Origin: Methanoculleus receptaculi
GTDB lineage: Archaea; Halobacteriota; Methanomicrobia; Methanomicrobiales; Methanoculleaceae
Direction of reading: 5' to 3'
NCBI RefSeq assembly: GCF_033472595.1
Contig: NZ_CP137642.1
Coordinates: 62,001 to 126,000, forward strand
DNA length: 64,000 nucleotides
Part shown: in pieces, positions 407 to 39,679 of the stretch
Position numbering within the stretch: the first letter of the stretch is position 1
Layout of the letters: every line of letters begins with the position of its first letter
Position numbers and translations under genes: made by a program
Notes under the pieces: model-generated
Told to the model about the DNA's origin: nothing
What the model saw: only the letters and a program-made list of their open reading frames with translations
The model's database searches: none

Positions 407-2095
407 ATGAGTTGGATCCGGCGAATCAAGCGTGGAAACCAGGTCTACCTCTATGAGGTTACCAGCATATGGGAAGACGGTCGACCAAAACAGAAAATGA
501 TCCAGTATCTCGGCGTCGAGAGCGACCAGGAGAAGGTTCCAAAACCCAAGACCAAACGGATGCACCCCGAACGCATCTACCCCCTCCAGAGCCTGGTAGC
601 AGGAGATGTCATGCTCCTCTGGCAGATTGCAGAGTCGCTCAACATCGTCAACACAATTGACCGTTACGTCATGGGTCTGGAGGACATCGAAGGACCTTCC
701 CCCGGCAAGTATCTGCTGAGTTGGGCGATCAACCGTATTCTTGACCCTGAGAGTGCAACCCAACTGGATGCATGGGTGCGCTCAACCGCCCTCCCGGACA
801 TCCTTGGAATGGAACCAACTGACTTCACAAAAGACGCCTATCTTCGTTCGCTTGACGCCATCTGTTCTCAATCCCGTAAAACAGGACGGATCCAGAGCCA
901 CATTCCGACGATCGAGGTGGAACTATACCAGCGCTGGCGTCAACTCCATCCTCTCCCTGTCCAGAACCCCGAAACGATCGCCTTTGATCTCACCCCAATT
1001 CCAACTTACGGCACAGAGTGTCCTCTGATAGAGCCTGGAAGTGAGACCCATGAGACACACCTAAACCAGCTAAATCTCTCGGTGATGACTTCGTTCTTTG
1101 ATTCCTACCCCATCTCACACTTTGTTCATCCTGGGAGTTTCCACTCGATCACCACTGTCCCGGATCTGATGATCCGGTTGAACGACCTGATGACTGCCCC
1201 GGGAACGATCGTCTGGGACCGGGGCTACACCAGTAACGCCGAGATCGGGTGTGTCGAGGATGAGGGCTGGAAACTCATCTGTGGTGTTGCTAAACGAACA
1301 AAGGAGGTTCGAGATCTTCTCTCTGTAACAGAACCTCCGGTGGACCCGTATCATCTGGTCCCGACCCAGTGTATGCATATCTACGCGCAGAAGGTCGATA
1401 CCCCGCTGTTCGGGAGGAAGGGGTCGGTTGTGGTCTACCTGAATGCTGAACGACGGTTTCGGGAGATGGAGGCCCGAAACGGTATGATCTTCAAGATCCA
1501 GCAGGAACTGGCTGAACTTCAGAAAACCTGTAGCAGACTTGGCCGGGATACTGTCATCGAGAAGGTTGACCGGATCGTGCCGAAAGCATACCGGAAATTC
1601 TTCCGGATCTCTGTGGATGACGGTGAGAAGGGTGTATCTCTTGTCTGGGAAGTGAACGATGTGGCCAGAGTCGAGGCTGAACGGATGGATGGCAAGTATC
1701 TGCTGTATGCCTCGGATCCATCTCTCTCTGCGACCGATGTTGTTCGGATCTACTTTGAGAAGGATTACGTCGAGAAGGTGTTTCGGGATCTCAAGACGTT
1801 TGAGGAGGTTGCACCGATACGACACCGGCGTGAGTCCAGGGTTCTTGGGGTTATCTTTGTCTGCACGCTTGCGCTCCGGTTGAAGACGGCGTTACGGGTG
1901 ATGCTGGAGACTGAAGGGAAGAAGGAGATAAGTGCTGAGGAATTGCTGAAGAAACTTGGTCGGGTCCATAGAGTGGACCTCCAGAAAGATACTGAACGGG
2001 AGATCTGGTATACGGGGCTTCAGAAGAAGACGCAGGCAGTTCTGGAGAGAATCGGGATGAGGGGCATCTTCGGAACAAATGTTCGAGAAACCTAG
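407..2095 (+). CDS. IS1634/IS4-type DDE transposase
   Basis: This is the transposase that cuts and joins the ends of its own element. From ATG 407 it is about 562 residues; a TTG at 398 could add three. The acidic triad is recognisable: Asp near residue 194 (FDLTP), Asp near 271 (WDRGY) and Glu near 456 in YFEKDYVEKVFRDLK, the IS4-superfamily Y-x2-K/R-x3-E-type signature. The N-terminal SWIRRIKRGNQVYLYE segment is typical of the IS1634 group. The stop codon TAG at 2093-2095 is formed by the last bases of the right inverted repeat, so coding runs to the very tip of the element. No frameshift or internal stop is visible, so the gene may be active. Confidence 0.9.
   Translation: MSWIRRIKRGNQVYLYEVTSIWEDGRPKQKMIQYLGVESDQEKVPKPKTKRMHPERIYPLQSLVAGDVMLLWQIAESLNIVNTIDRYVMGLEDIEGPSPGKYLLSWAINRILDPESATQLDAWVRSTALPDILGMEPTDFTKDAYLRSLDAICSQSRKTGRIQSHIPTIEVELYQRWRQLHPLPVQNPETIAFDLTPIPTYGTECPLIEPGSETHETHLNQLNLSVMTSFFDSYPISHFVHPGSFHSITTVPDLMIRLNDLMTAPGTIVWDRGYTSNAEIGCVEDEGWKLICGVAKRTKEVRDLLSVTEPPVDPYHLVPTQCMHIYAQKVDTPLFGRKGSVVVYLNAERRFREMEARNGMIFKIQQELAELQKTCSRLGRDTVIEKVDRIVPKAYRKFFRISVDDGEKGVSLVWEVNDVARVEAERMDGKYLLYASDPSLSATDVVRIYFEKDYVEKVFRDLKTFEEVAPIRHRRESRVLGVIFVCTLALRLKTALRVMLETEGKKEISAEELLKKLGRVHRVDLQKDTEREIWYTGLQKKTQAVLERIGMRGIFGTNVRET
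2084..2095 (-). repeat. Right terminal inverted repeat of the insertion sequence
   Basis: CGAGAAACCTAG is the imperfect reverse complement of the left end. It supplies the transposase stop codon and is followed by the second TGATCA copy (2096-2101). Confidence 0.7.
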
Positions 2096-2101
2096 TGATC
2101 A

Positions 2102-2670
2102 TAGGTGCGCTGTTTAGGACGTACCCTTACATTCAGCAAGCAGCGCAAGAGCAGACATCCATGGGGTATTCAGCAAGTACGTTCATAGGAGTCGACGCAA
2201 ATTATGCATTCAACCGGCTGCCGGATGACCAAGTGTTCTACTTCAACGGCCATGGAGGACCAGGGATGATAGATTTCGGTACGACCTATCTCTACGCATC
2301 CGTTTCTGGTTATGATTCAATCTCAGAGTTCACATCAGGGCAGTTAAATGATCTGGCTCTGGCCGTTTTTGTGGGTTGCAACACTGGCTTAACAAGTTCT
2401 GGAGGCCTCGGGAATCTGTTGACAGAGTCCACGTCGAGGGGTACAGATTGTGCACTTGGATTTACCGATCAAATTGAATCCAATAAAGCGGGATACTGGT
2501 CGGATAATTTCTGGGGTCAACTTGATCAGGGAGAAACAGTTGGAGATGGAGCAGCAGAAGCTTTGCAGTATACAAGAATTTACTACCTCTGGCAGACTGG
2601 GGGAGTAGAGTCGTACATCATTTATGGGAATTCGAACTTGAAAATTGATCCGGCAGTCGCGGGGGTCTGA
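2102..2670 (+). pseudogene. 3' fragment of a secreted caspase-fold (clan CD-like) protein
   Basis: An open frame of about 190 codons follows the insertion sequence without a start of its own; the first internal ATG is at 2161. It contains FNGHGGPG and, about 40 residues later, FVGCNTG, each preceded by a hydrophobic strand. This His-then-Cys spacing resembles the catalytic dyad of caspase-fold peptidases (gingipain, legumain and CHAT-like families). Assignment is by motif only. No transmembrane segment is present, so the original protein would have been exported through the signal peptide encoded at 125. The stop is three bases before the PepSY-like gene at 2674, which suggests co-transcription. 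Loss of the promoter-proximal part makes it a likely pseudogene. Confidence 0.55.
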
Positions 2671-2673
2671 AGC

Positions 2674-3501
2674 ATGAGAACTCACAACATATTACTTGCT
2701 TGCGCTTTGATGTGCTGCATCGGCATCATATTGGTATCTGGAGCCAGCGCAATCTCTCAGGGAGAGAAAAACGTTGAAAGTCAAATTGTCAATCAAAACA
2801 ACATCCTTGACTGTGAAGAGGCAAAACACCAGATTCAGGCATTTATGGAGGGTAAAGACATCAGCATTGAATACAAGGGTACGATGCCCACTCCCTCCGG
2901 TGAGATGATGCTGTTCAGATCCGACGATGAGATATATTATATAAATTCTCAATCGAGATCCATTGAAGGAGCAATGTTCTTTAAATCACTCGATAACTCG
3001 AATGAAGTGCAGTTAAATGCAGAAAATGCCCAAAAAATTGCCGAGGACTACGCCAAATCAAAGTATAGGCCATTTACACAGAAGAACATGCAATTAATCA
3101 GATCAGATCTTCTGGATCACGGAGACGGAGGGAAAGAATACCTTTTCGTCTGGTGTGAGATTGTAAACGGCGCCTTGACCCCAAATTACGTCTCGATCTC
3201 TATTAATCCAAACAGTGGAGAAGTAATTTCATACATCGGGATTGAAAGGACACTGGATGTTGATCTTGATCCGGAGATCTCCAGACAGGATGCGATCAAG
3301 ACGGCAATCACCCAGTTTAAAGAAATCGAAGTGTCAAACGTGGACACTCAGTTAGCAGTTATATACACGGATCAGAATGAACAGTGCCTTACATGGGTTG
3401 TTACCATCGACGGAGAGGAAAGTGACAGCACTATACGGGGCGGAACGGTCCTCGTTGATGCGATGAGCGGGAAGGTTGTACAGGTTGATCCGTATCTCTA
3501 A
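2674..3501 (+). CDS. Secreted PepSY-type protein
   Basis: The 275-residue product starts with a signal peptide (hydrophobic ILLACALMCCIGIILVSGASA, cleavage near residue 26). It has two PepSY/YpeB-like segments: residues about 110-190, with NPNSGEVISYIG, and about 205-275, with VDAMSGKVVQVDPYL. Each ends in the V/I-D/N-x-x-(S/T)-G-x-V strand-turn typical of PepSY repeats. PepSY domains are often found in peptidase propeptides or peptidase inhibitors. The gene sits three bases after the caspase-fold fragment, so inhibition or maturation of that peptidase is a reasonable inference. Its start is secured by the signal peptide. Base composition is lower in GC than the genes after 3530. Confidence 0.65.
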   Translation: MRTHNILLACALMCCIGIILVSGASAISQGEKNVESQIVNQNNILDCEEAKHQIQAFMEGKDISIEYKGTMPTPSGEMMLFRSDDEIYYINSQSRSIEGAMFFKSLDNSNEVQLNAENAQKIAEDYAKSKYRPFTQKNMQLIRSDLLDHGDGGKEYLFVWCEIVNGALTPNYVSISINPNSGEVISYIGIERTLDVDLDPEISRQDAIKTAITQFKEIEVSNVDTQLAVIYTDQNEQCLTWVVTIDGEESDSTIRGGTVLVDAMSGKVVQVDPYL

Positions 3502-34943: not shown

Positions 34944-35118
34944 AAATGGCCCTCTATATTTTCATCTGGTATGCATGTGGCCTTGTGGGCATCATGTAGT
35001 TTTTTTTTGCGGTACTGTACGGCCTGCGGTATTTTTGCCACCCCGTCTCAGACACCGTCTCCCGACGCCTGCAGGAACCTATTTATCCATGAGCGAACTT
35101 ATGCGAGGTCTGAACACC

Positions 35119-36777
35119 ATGCAAGAATACTCGTTACTGATCGGTGGAAAGGCTGGCGAGGGTATCAACACGGCAGGCCTCTCCATAGCAGGTCTCTTCT
35201 CCAGCCTCGGTTACCGCGTCTACATGTACTTCGATTACCCCTCGCTCATCCGGGGCGGGCACAACTTTGCAATCATTCGCGCCGCGGACAGGCCAATCGG
35301 GGCGCACCGCACCAGGGTCGACGTTCTGCTGGCCCTTGACCGTAAAACCATTGAGACCCATAAGGAGCGGATCGACGGGAAGACAACGGTCATCTACGAC
35401 TCCTCGCAGGTGAAAGAGGGGATGGGTTACGGCCTCCCCCTTGATGATATCATTGCGGAAGAGAGAGCGTCCCCGATAACCAGAAACTCCGCGATGCTCG
35501 GAGCGCTTGCCCGTGTTGCAGGGATCGACCGGGAGATACTCGAAGATGTCCTCCGCGCAGCCGTCCCGGAAAAACACCTGGATTCAAACCTCCGGGTTGC
35601 TGCAAGGGGCTACAGCGCGGTGGAGAGCGTCTTTTCCGTAAAACAGCTGGATGCCCCGGCACTCCCTGTCCTGACGGGTAACGAGGCCGCCGGGCTCGGA
35701 CTGGTCTACGGCGGGCTTGATACCTACGTCGCCTACCCCATGACACCCTCATCGGGGGTTCTCCATTTTCTGGCCGGCCGCGCCGAAGATCTCGGGATCA
35801 GGGTGATCCACCCGGAAAACGAGATAAGCGTCATCCTGATGGCTCTTGGGCTTGCCTACACAGGGGAAAGAGCAGCGGTCGGAACCTCCGGTGGAGGGTT
35901 CTGCCTGATGACCGAAGGGCTTTCGTTTGCCGGGATGTCGGAGATGCCGGTGACAATAGTGCTGTCGCAGCGGCCCGGCCCGAGCACCGGTGTGCCTACA
36001 TACACCGCGCAGAGCGACCTCCACTTCGCCCTGAACGCCGGCCAGGGGGAGTTTCCAAGGCTCGTCGTCGCCCCGGGGGATCCGCATGAGGCCTGCGCCT
36101 GGTCCGCGACCGCGCTGATGCTCTCCTGGCGCTACCAGGTCCCGGCGATCATCCTGATGGATAAGACGCTCGCTGAAGGTGCCTGCTCCTTCGATCTCGA
36201 TGCATCAACTCCGCCGCGGGACCACGAACCGCTGCTCGAGGATGGAGAGGGAGAATACCGGCGTTACCGCCTGACTGAGGATGGAGTATCCCCGCTTGCC
36301 TTCCCGGGAATGGAAGGGGTGACGGTCAAGGCAAACAGCTACGCCCATGACGAGAGGGGGTTTACAACCGAGAAAGCAGAGGAGATCCGTGCACTGCAGG
36401 AGAAACTGCTCAGAAAAGCCGGGAGCCTGAAAGCGGAACTTGAGGGCTACCAGACCGTGAAGACCTACGGTGCACCTGACGCGGCGAGGACCATCATATG
36501 CTGGGGATCGCAGAAATGGGTGTGTATCGAGGCCGCCGCCGGGGTCGGCGCGCGGGTTGTTCAGCCTGTTGTGCTTGCCCCGTTCCCGGTTGAGGCCTGG
36601 AGCAAGGCGATGGCCGGCGCGGGAGAGGTGGTCTGCGTCGAGAACAATGCCACGGGTCAGGTCGCCCGTCTTCTCAGGGAGCATGGATTCGATCCAGGCA
36701 GATCCATCCTGAAGTACGATGGTCGACCGTTTGCGGTCGATGAACTCACTGCAAGGCTCGAAGAGGTGTTTGTATGA
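35119..36777 (+). CDS. 2-oxoacid:ferredoxin oxidoreductase, fused gamma-alpha subunit
   Basis: Together with the next gene it should oxidise a 2-oxoacid to the acyl-CoA with ferredoxin as acceptor. Residues 1-180 are the gamma domain (LLIGGKAGEGINTAG; YPSLIRGGHNFAIIR). Residues about 190-550 are the alpha domain with the YPITPSS-type YPMTPSSG, GTSGGGFCLMTEG and RPGPSTGVPTY. ATG 35119 follows GAGGT; ATG 35089 or 35101 are alternatives. The substrate (2-oxoglutarate, branched-chain or pyruvate) cannot be told from sequence alone. No delta (ferredoxin-like) subunit gene lies nearby, as in the two-subunit type. Confidence 0.88.
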   Translation: MQEYSLLIGGKAGEGINTAGLSIAGLFSSLGYRVYMYFDYPSLIRGGHNFAIIRAADRPIGAHRTRVDVLLALDRKTIETHKERIDGKTTVIYDSSQVKEGMGYGLPLDDIIAEERASPITRNSAMLGALARVAGIDREILEDVLRAAVPEKHLDSNLRVAARGYSAVESVFSVKQLDAPALPVLTGNEAAGLGLVYGGLDTYVAYPMTPSSGVLHFLAGRAEDLGIRVIHPENEISVILMALGLAYTGERAAVGTSGGGFCLMTEGLSFAGMSEMPVTIVLSQRPGPSTGVPTYTAQSDLHFALNAGQGEFPRLVVAPGDPHEACAWSATALMLSWRYQVPAIILMDKTLAEGACSFDLDASTPPRDHEPLLEDGEGEYRRYRLTEDGVSPLAFPGMEGVTVKANSYAHDERGFTTEKAEEIRALQEKLLRKAGSLKAELEGYQTVKTYGAPDAARTIICWGSQKWVCIEAAAGVGARVVQPVVLAPFPVEAWSKAMAGAGEVVCVENNATGQVARLLREHGFDPGRSILKYDGRPFAVDELTARLEEVFV

Positions 36778-37646
36778 CCCCGGACCGGTCTGCCGCTGGA
36801 CTTATAACTCCGGTGCAGAACACCTGGTGTCCTGGTTGCGGTAACTTCTCGATCCAGCACATGATGAGATCGGCCATCGCAGAAATCTCGGAGGAGGAGG
36901 GTATACCCATCGAGAAGTTCGTCTTCCTTGGCGGTATCGGGTGCCACGGGAAACTGATGGATTACCTGAACGTCAACAGCCTCTACACCATCCACGGCCG
37001 TTCAATCCCGGCAGCCACCGGGATACGCCTGGCAAACCGTGACCTGCGGGTAATCTGTCACGTCGGCGACGGTGACATCTACGCCGAGGGGCTTGACCAC
37101 CTCATCTTTGCGGCCAAGCGGAACACCGATATAACCGTGATCGTCCACGACAACCGGGTCTACGGTCTGACGACCGGACAGTACACCCCGACGTCGCCCA
37201 CAGGGTTCCGGGGGCGTTCTACGCCGCGGGGGGTGGCGGAGCAGCCCATGAACCCGCTCGAGGTGATGCTCGCCGCCGGGGCCACCCACATCGCACGGGG
37301 CTACACCCGGAAGACCCGGCACCTCAAAGATATCTTCAAAGAGGCGATAATGCACCGCGGATTCTCTTTCGTCGATCTCCTCCAGATCTGTGCAACCTAC
37401 TCCAACCTGACCGACTACTATGACGCGCATATCTACGAGATGCAGGATGGCGATCTCGATACCGGTCGGTTCGAGAGCGCTCTTCAAAAGATCAGGGAAT
37501 GGGACTACGACCGGGATGCGCCTATCGCGATCGGGACGTTCTATTCGATTGAGCGGCCCCTCTACGAAGAGGGTTTCAGTGTACCGCCGAGCGGGCTTGA
37601 AGAGCGGCGCGGGCGCGTCCAGAGGTTGGTCGAGGGCTGGAGGTGA
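36774..37646 (+). CDS. 2-oxoacid:ferredoxin oxidoreductase, beta subunit
   Basis: Thiamine diphosphate-binding subunit of 290 residues, overlapping the alpha subunit by ATGA. The ThDP motif is VGDGDIYAEGLDH...VHDNRVYGLT. Cluster cysteines are visible in WCPGCGN (19, 22), GIGCHG (near 57) and LLQICATYSN (near 203), matching the [4Fe-4S] site of this family. It completes a two-protein enzyme with the gene before it. The stop is followed by a GGGGG-rich 95-bp gap to the convergent agmatine deiminase fusion. Confidence 0.9.
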   Translation: MTPDRSAAGLITPVQNTWCPGCGNFSIQHMMRSAIAEISEEEGIPIEKFVFLGGIGCHGKLMDYLNVNSLYTIHGRSIPAATGIRLANRDLRVICHVGDGDIYAEGLDHLIFAAKRNTDITVIVHDNRVYGLTTGQYTPTSPTGFRGRSTPRGVAEQPMNPLEVMLAAGATHIARGYTRKTRHLKDIFKEAIMHRGFSFVDLLQICATYSNLTDYYDAHIYEMQDGDLDTGRFESALQKIREWDYDRDAPIAIGTFYSIERPLYEEGFSVPPSGLEERRGRVQRLVEGWR

Positions 37647-37741: not shown

Positions 37742-39679
37742 TTACTTCTTTCGGGAGGGGCTTTCTGCCCTCTGGCCGGTGACATCGGACGAAATTGATG
37801 GCTGCTGAAGAGTTATACAGTGAACTCCGCCCATCCCCTCGACCAGTGCCGTGCAGTCTATCCCGATGACCTTCCTGCCCGGGAAAGCCTGCCGAATCCG
37901 TGCCAGGGCTGCAGCATCGTTGGGGTGTTTGAAGGTCGGCACAAGCACAACGGTGTTTCCTATGTAGAAGTTCGCGTAACTGGCCGGCAATCGTACTTCA
38001 CCGCCGACCCTGCCTGGTGTCGGGAGGGGGATTACCGTTAAGGGTTTACCGTCCTGGTCGGTTGACGACCGCAGGATCTCGTAGTTCTCCTTCAGCGGAG
38101 CGTAGTTCTCGTCATCCCTGTCGTCTTCGATGACACAGAGGACGGTTGTCGGGTTCACGAACCGCGCGATGTTATCGACATGACCACCGGTTTCGTCGCC
38201 AGCGATCCCCTCTTTCAGCCATATGACATGGCTGACACCGAGGTATGCCTCCAGATAGGCCTCGATATCCTCACGTGCGCTCCGTGGGTTCCTGTTCGGG
38301 TTCATGAGGCACGACTCAGTCACGATCGCCGTCCCGGCGCCGTTAACCTCGACCGAAGACCCTTCGAGAACGATACCGGGGGTGAATATCGGGAGGTTCA
38401 GGTCACGGTTCATCATGAGCGGGACTTCTGAATCCTTCTTGAGGTCAGGATACTTCTCTCCCCAGGCATTGAAGTTCCAGTGCACCATCGCAAGGCTCTC
38501 TGTCCTGCGGTTGATCACAAACATCGGCCCGTAATCGCGGAGCCAGACATCGGCATAATCGAGCATGTGGAACCGCACACCGGACGCATCGATGCCGCCC
38601 TCAAGGAGTATCCCCCCAACACGGGTATGCATCTGCTCCCCGGTTACAAGGAGGTTGACAGTCTCCGAGCGGCGGAGCGCTGCAATGATCTCAACATAGT
38701 TCCACTCCACCGCGGCAAGGTCAGGGAGCATCTCCCGGTCATAAGGCCAGGCGAGCCAGACAGCATCGTGCGGCTCCCACTCTGCAGGCATCCGGTAACC
38801 CAGTGCCTGCGGCGTCTTGCCCGGCGGGAACTTCCGGATGAGCGCCCTGTAGGTCTCCGGCCTCCGGTTTTGGAATAGATTCCATCTTTCCCGGGCAGCC
38901 TCATTCATCGAGGGGTCAACCTCTGCGATGAGGACCTCCTCATCGGCCTCGCTCGCGCGGGCAATGACGTTTCCAAACGCATCTGCGATGAACGAACTCC
39001 CAAAGAACCGGATACACCCCTCCTCGCCCACCCTGTTTACAGCGGCGATGTGAAGACCGTTTGCTATCGCGTGACCGCGCTGGACGGTTTCCCACGCCTC
39101 ACGCCAGTCGCTGCCGGGAGATCTCTCACCGGAGATCCAGCCGATTGCGGAGGGGTAGAAGATCATCTCGGCGCCCCGCAGCGCAACCACCCTTGCAGCC
39201 TCGGGGAACCACTGATCATAGGAGATGAGCACGGCTATACGGCCATAGCGGGTGTCATAGAGCCTGTAGCGGTCGCCGGCGTGGAAGTATCTTTTGTCGT
39301 AGATGGGCGGATCCTGATGGATGTGCACCTTCCGGTAGGCAGGGAAGAGCACCCGACCGTCAGCATCGATCACCACCGCGGAGTTGTAGTGTTCACCGGA
39401 CGCGGCCCGTTCGTAGATAGGCAGAATGAAGACCGCACCATGCTCCCGGGCAAGTGCCGAGAACGCCTCTGTCGAAGCGTCGGGGATCGTCTCGGCGTAG
39501 GCCGAGGCGTCCGCATCCTCATACTGAGGGAAGTAAGGGGCACGATAGAGTTCCGGAAGGCAGATGATCCGCGCACCCTTTGAGATCGCCGAGCCTGCCA
39601 TATCCAGGGCGTGCTTGAGGTTGTGATCGGGGTCTTCGCTTACCGCTGTCTGGATGAGGGCGATCGTTTGCTTGCTCAT
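37742..39679 (-). CDS. Nitrilase-family domain (catalytic Cys lost) fused to agmatine deiminase
   Basis: This 645-residue fusion begins at ATG 39679, nine bases after GAGGAG. Residues 1-290 are a nitrilase fold closest to N-carbamoylputrescine amidase: Glu43 (LPELYRAP), Glu96 (GEHYNSA) and Lys117 (YRKVHI) are present. The nucleophile site reads LISYDQWFPE, with Ser153 where CWDQWFPE is expected, and the next Trp is Tyr. Two codons are changed, so a single sequencing error is unlikely. Residues 292-630 are agmatine deiminase (AguA) with DYGPMFV, GHVDNIARF (His500) and the nucleophile Cys621 in GMGGVHCITLQQP. The deiminase should yield carbamoylputrescine; the second step may be lost, altered or supplied elsewhere. 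Confidence 0.9.
   Translation of the reverse strand: MSKQTIALIQTAVSEDPDHNLKHALDMAGSAISKGARIICLPELYRAPYFPQYEDADASAYAETIPDASTEAFSALAREHGAVFILPIYERAASGEHYNSAVVIDADGRVLFPAYRKVHIHQDPPIYDKRYFHAGDRYRLYDTRYGRIAVLISYDQWFPEAARVVALRGAEMIFYPSAIGWISGERSPGSDWREAWETVQRGHAIANGLHIAAVNRVGEEGCIRFFGSSFIADAFGNVIARASEADEEVLIAEVDPSMNEAARERWNLFQNRRPETYRALIRKFPPGKTPQALGYRMPAEWEPHDAVWLAWPYDREMLPDLAAVEWNYVEIIAALRRSETVNLLVTGEQMHTRVGGILLEGGIDASGVRFHMLDYADVWLRDYGPMFVINRRTESLAMVHWNFNAWGEKYPDLKKDSEVPLMMNRDLNLPIFTPGIVLEGSSVEVNGAGTAIVTESCLMNPNRNPRSAREDIEAYLEAYLGVSHVIWLKEGIAGDETGGHVDNIARFVNPTTVLCVIEDDRDDENYAPLKENYEILRSSTDQDGKPLTVIPLPTPGRVGGEVRLPASYANFYIGNTVVLVPTFKHPNDAAALARIRQAFPGRKVIGIDCTALVEGMGGVHCITLQQPSISSDVTGQRAESPSRKK

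Follow-up and report, generated by a model that had tools for sequence, protein, structure and literature searches.

In the 64,000-nucleotide stretch of Methanoculleus receptaculi DNA that was analysed (the window), a gene fusing an N-carbamoylputrescine amidase-like (CPA, AguB) half to an agmatine deiminase-like (AguA) half encodes Ser at the position of the amidase nucleophile Cys. The same Ser was found in a second genome, and both halves of the protein are under purifying selection. The protein is probably, though by no means certainly, a natural pseudo-amidase within a bifunctional-type enzyme: the dead half would be kept for its fold, for assembly or for ligand binding, and the loss would be tolerated by way of agmatinase. 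The gene and its two parts are the following.

37742-39679, minus strand: fusion gene (N-carbamoylputrescine amidase-like plus agmatine deiminase-like), 645 amino acids, defined by open reading frame and Pfam matches; synteny conserved with the closest relative, genome G075, and other Methanoculleus.
38828-39679, minus strand: N-terminal nitrilase-fold (CPA/AguB-like) half, residues 1-284, from PF00795 and an AF2 model compared with MtCPA (5h8j/5h8k).
37790-38818, minus strand: C-terminal agmatine deiminase (AguA/AIH)-like half, residues 288-630, from PF04371 and the model compared with 1xkn and MtAIH.

The uninterrupted reading frame of 645 codons agrees with an earlier description made from the sequence only (the sequence-only reading), which had proposed a single nitrilase-agmatine deiminase fusion protein. 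The source genome is a single contig of 1.98 Mb, 99.76% complete. Pfam profile search located CN_hydrolase (PF00795) at residues 5-263 (182.7 bits versus a gathering score of 23.2) and PAD_porph (PF04371) at residues 296-627 (390.9 bits). In an AF2 model built with 48 fusions (mean pLDDT 88.6) the amidase half aligned to the plant N-carbamoylputrescine amidohydrolase MtCPA with Z about 39.5, and the deiminase half to the agmatine deiminases 1xkn (Z 48.9) and MtAIH (Z about 46). By fold as well as by Pfam gathering score the protein is a member of the nitrilase superfamily. It scored below the cut-offs of both equivalog families, with 249.0 bits for AguB (TIGR03381, cut-off 410.25) and 276.2 bits for AguA (TIGR03380, cut-off 381.8). 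A normal Cys-bearing Methanoculleus fusion (L007 in genome G063, positions 1501-3432) also fell below both (AguB 283.5 and AguA 288.8 bits), so family membership leaves the native substrates presumptive here. Across the Methanoculleus loci compared, the fusion gene is adjoined by a gene pair (window 34975-37646) resembling, by sequence appearance, the subunits of a 2-oxoacid:ferredoxin oxidoreductase.

AguB-AguA fusions are nothing unusual and occur widely in archaea and in some bacteria. An order-wide search gave a match in 200 of 232 genomes and a fused match in more than 100; beyond the order, fusions were found in Methanothrix, Bathycorpusculum, Micrarchaeota, Acidobacteria, Algoriphagus and Azotobacter. 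In six genomes of one genus within the order (G220, G222, G223, G226, G229 and G230; loci L125-L130) the halves are adjacent separate matches, and the amidase part retains its Cys. When the fusions were aligned at the column of residue 153, as the sequence-only reading had proposed, Cys was present in all 117 other fusions aligned from the order and throughout 80 named loci of archaea and bacteria (ICYDQW, ICFDQW, ICWDQW and similar). Only the window (ISYDQW) and G075 (ISNDQW) have the Ser motif. Their fusion proteins are 87% identical, and the gene tree joins them with full support in a clade of two tips (the Ser clade) inside the Methanoculleus clade, sister to its remaining members. A degenerate search pattern limited to the TCN codons of serine matched 2 of 393 phylum genomes, again these two, and no convergent Ser was seen elsewhere. 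Since an independent genome carries the same Ser, Ser153 is neither a sequencing or assembly error nor a private mutation. A literature search on nitrilase pseudoenzymes and on replacement of the nucleophile by serine found none.

The replacement itself was thus correctly recognized in the sequence-only reading, and it is clade-specific; the wider remodelling of the site had been missed. The positions of interest in the amidase half are listed below.

39221-39223, minus strand: codon 153, TCC (Ser) replacing the nucleophile Cys of the 117 aligned fusions and 80 named loci.
39296-39298, minus strand: codon 128, Asp replacing the invariant second catalytic Glu (MtCPA Glu132), from the alignment and PMC4812014.
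39317-39319, minus strand: codon 121, His replacing the invariant channel Pro (MtCPA Pro125), from the alignment and PMC4812014.
39329-39331, minus strand: codon 117, catalytic Lys kept (alignment).
39551-39553, minus strand: codon 43, catalytic Glu kept (alignment).

Of the AguB Glu-Lys-Cys triad, Glu43 and Lys117 are therefore present and Cys is Ser153. Glu96, which had been counted with them as a remaining catalytic residue, lies in a column of R, E, K or N; the true second Glu corresponds to position 128. In MtCPA this residue, Glu132, contributes to Cys activation and is likely to orient the carbamoyl group; Pro125 forms part of the channel lining (PMC4812014). Both Ser species carry P121H, E128D, C153S, T177S, E189G/K and G267N at columns that vary little or not at all in the other 117 fusions, and the loop KVHVPYDPLFYEK has become KVHIHQDPPIYDK or KVHLHNDPPIYDK in them. 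Other changes are private to one tip (C40S, F132V and N271D in G075; G190S and F268L in the window). One extra residue, common to both species, was noted just upstream of the catalytic Lys (residue 112, window about 39344-39346; VLFPAYRK versus LLPAYRK). In leave-one-out counts over both halves, the window protein had 15 changes at columns conserved to at least 99% and G075 had 14, against a maximum of 5 and a median of 0 in the others. Clustering in the MtCPA pocket was weak in a Fisher-type test (changed in both species were 3 of 10 invariant pocket positions and 3 of 69 others). Judged from these residues, the amidase site is altered as a whole, beyond the Cys alone. The proposal that the domain holds carbamoylputrescine as a sensor or channel is weakened by three of the changes, namely P121H in the channel wall, E128D at the carbamoyl-positioning Glu and the replacement of E189 by Gly or Lys. 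Tyr154 had been taken as a second replacement, so that no fewer than two codons would have to differ. Among the 117 other fusions, 91 have Tyr and 26 have Phe at position 154, so that Tyr is ancestral and the two-codon argument fails: at codons 153-154 the relatives have TGC or TGT followed mostly by TAC, and the Ser species TCC-TAT and TCC-AAT.

The deiminase half retains its catalytic triad, including the Cys621 and His500 named in the sequence-only reading.

37817-37819, minus strand: codon 621, deiminase catalytic Cys kept (alignment; MtAIH Cys366).
38174-38194, minus strand: codons 496-502 (ETGGHVD), His500 and Asp502 of the triad kept, D496E and D498G changed (alignment).

The Cys621-His500-Asp502 triad of AguA and the DxWxRD motif are intact. 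D496E, D503N and Q624L occur in both Ser species, and F318L, G441S, L459M and D498G in the window only. Hence the deiminase half is itself not untouched, and this partner, presumed to be active, may be altered.

Selection was estimated with codon models in our own home-made implementation (not PAML or HyPhy), using 6-9 Methanoculleus per gene. Tips were pooled; single-tip estimates were unstable in four-omega fits (korB, window tip 7.3). Pooled tip omega was 0.143 for the amidase half and 0.085 for the deiminase half, and eight neighbouring genes used as controls gave 0.035-0.16. An omega of 1 was rejected for the tips of both halves (2dlnL 91.7 and 155.3, respectively). Codons were then split by their invariance outside the genus, keeping the branch lengths of the full fit. 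At the invariant codons omega rose from 0.000 in the background to 0.065 in the Ser clade for the amidase half (2dlnL 27.9) and from 0.0018 to 0.031 for the deiminase half (2dlnL 14.7). The remaining codons showed no rise (0.134 to 0.134 in the amidase half, 0.142 to 0.093 in the deiminase half). Because the increase is confined to formerly invariant codons, functional positions appear to have lost constraint while the fold is still constrained. The amidase half thus shows two of the marks of a pseudoenzyme, loss of catalytic residues (C153S and E128D, in two species) and purifying selection. The claim that the rest of this half is conserved holds for its fold and does not hold for positions 121, 128, 177, 189 and 267.

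Genes of polyamine metabolism were compared in 12 genomes, both Ser species included. The arginine decarboxylase gene PvlArgDC and one ureohydrolase were present in all 12. The ureohydrolase of the window genome scored above the agmatinase equivalog cut-off (TIGR01230, 217.0 versus 174.3 bits) and aligns at 67-81%; the agmatinase sequence motifs are intact in both Ser species. No second CPA was recognized among the other CN_hydrolase genes of the genome. Their two products were rejected as replacements: one of 268 amino acids has a DLRFPE motif and scores far under the AguB cut-off, and one of 530 amino acids resembles NAD synthetase in sequence. No putrescine carbamoyltransferase was recognized (the OTCase family has two copies in each of the 12 genomes, with no extra one in the Ser species), nor was there an extra amidase-signature amidohydrolase (one copy in each of the 12). 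Spermidine synthase family PF01564 had no match in any of the 12 genomes; its absence is hence not specific to the Ser clade. Each of the 12 also has two deoxyhypusine synthase-family (DHS) genes.

These observations are consistent with the following course. The ancestor of the two species would have carried a normal AguB-AguA fusion whose amidase half contained Glu-Lys-Cys. On the stem of the Ser clade the nucleophile would have become Ser and the substrate pocket would have changed (P121H, L125P, F126I, E128D, T177S, G267N), most likely with loss of N-carbamoylputrescine hydrolysis. Selection would still act on the amidase fold, whose simplest role would be to assist the assembly or stability of the deiminase half; the latter, with its triad intact, could still turn agmatine or a relative into a carbamoyl product. 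If the other enzymes have the activities of their families, the decarboxylase would convert arginine to agmatine and agmatinase would convert agmatine directly to putrescine; loss of the amidase would be tolerable because of this direct route. Carbamoylputrescine as the end product of the fusion, as suggested earlier, is possible: the lack of a recognizable second CPA, carbamoyltransferase or extra amidohydrolase speaks for it and the intact agmatinase gene against it. Some findings do not fit a pseudo-amidase easily. Agmatinase is genus-wide, so redundancy alone fails to explain a change limited to the Ser clade, and both species keep Glu43 and Lys117, although an entirely dead site could do without them. 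The altered deiminase sites also speak against it.

The main rival of the pseudo-amidase reading, since the same branch also saw changes at deiminase positions, is a shift in the function of the whole fusion. Both sites would have been jointly retuned to a different substrate; the deiminase triad would still be active, and the amidase pocket would serve for binding or altered chemistry. The rise of omega only at formerly invariant sites of both halves, the sharing of D496E, D503N and Q624L by the two species and the unchanged overall purifying selection speak for it. However, other deiminase sequences likewise have Glu at position 496 (2ewo) or Asn at position 503 (6nib), so these replacements do not require a new substrate, and the further changes specific to each tip resemble loosened more than new constraint. 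We consider such a shift a serious but rather unlikely alternative.

Early decay, in which the cell would need neither activity and would slowly be losing the gene, is improbable. Agmatinase would be redundant with the fusion, invariant residues are lost from both halves, and the genomes (1.98 Mb for the window species, 1.9 Mb for G075) are small compared with the 2.2-2.9 Mb of most genus members listed. Against this, the reading frame is intact in two species, the omega of both halves is like that of conserved neighbours, and neutrality was rejected at the tips. The earlier statement that the change is not simple decay is upheld on these grounds and not by the count of codon differences on which it had leaned.

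It is quite improbable that the amidase half is still active with Ser153 taking over as the nucleophile, perhaps together with the newly acquired His121 and Asp128, even though all three are common to both species and Glu43 and Lys117 are kept: in MtCPA the C158S replacement left putrescine bound and reactivity "strongly diminished" (PMC4812014), and BCG_2279c, a natural Cys387-to-Ser homologue of apolipoprotein N-acyltransferase (Lnt), does not replace Lnt function (PMC3850990). That these residues form a rebuilt serine hydrolase site in a lineage-specific branch is fainter still as a prospect; it would be a nucleophile change within the nitrilase superfamily.

The nearest known systems are the Cys-bearing AguB-AguA fusions of Methanomicrobiales and other archaea and bacteria, which have the same domain order and length and, in the Methanoculleus loci compared, a conserved gene neighbourhood. 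The window fusion is 69-74% identical to those of other genus members and about 38-64% to those from outside the genus. They differ from it in having Cys153 in all those read and in keeping Glu128 and Pro121 in those aligned from the order. MtCPA (Medicago truncatula, PDB 5H8I-5H8L) shares the fold and the Glu-Lys positions of the amidase half, but the wild type keeps Cys158, Glu132 and Pro125 and is unfused; its engineered C158S is the same change as the natural one in the window. The agmatine deiminases 1xkn (putative), MtAIH (6NIB/6NIC), 2EWO and E. faecalis 2JER share the fold of the other half (Z 46-49) and the Cys-His-Asp triad; they are unfused, and the window protein additionally has D498G, G441S and Q624L. 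BCG_2279c, like the window protein, is a retained protein in which the superfamily nucleophile Cys is Ser, but it belongs to another branch of the superfamily and is a membrane enzyme without a deiminase fusion. A dead nitrilase-fold domain is thus already known; as far as we found, an AguB-AguA fusion that is under ordinary selection with one half dead is apparently new. Annotating the gene as an N-carbamoylputrescine amidase would add a pathway step that may be missing. The Ser clade is a single-clade case in which the nucleophile has been lost from an enzyme half whose fold is under ordinary selection, and its many close Cys-bearing controls make a structural or regulatory role of the amidase half, apart from catalysis, directly testable in these fusions.
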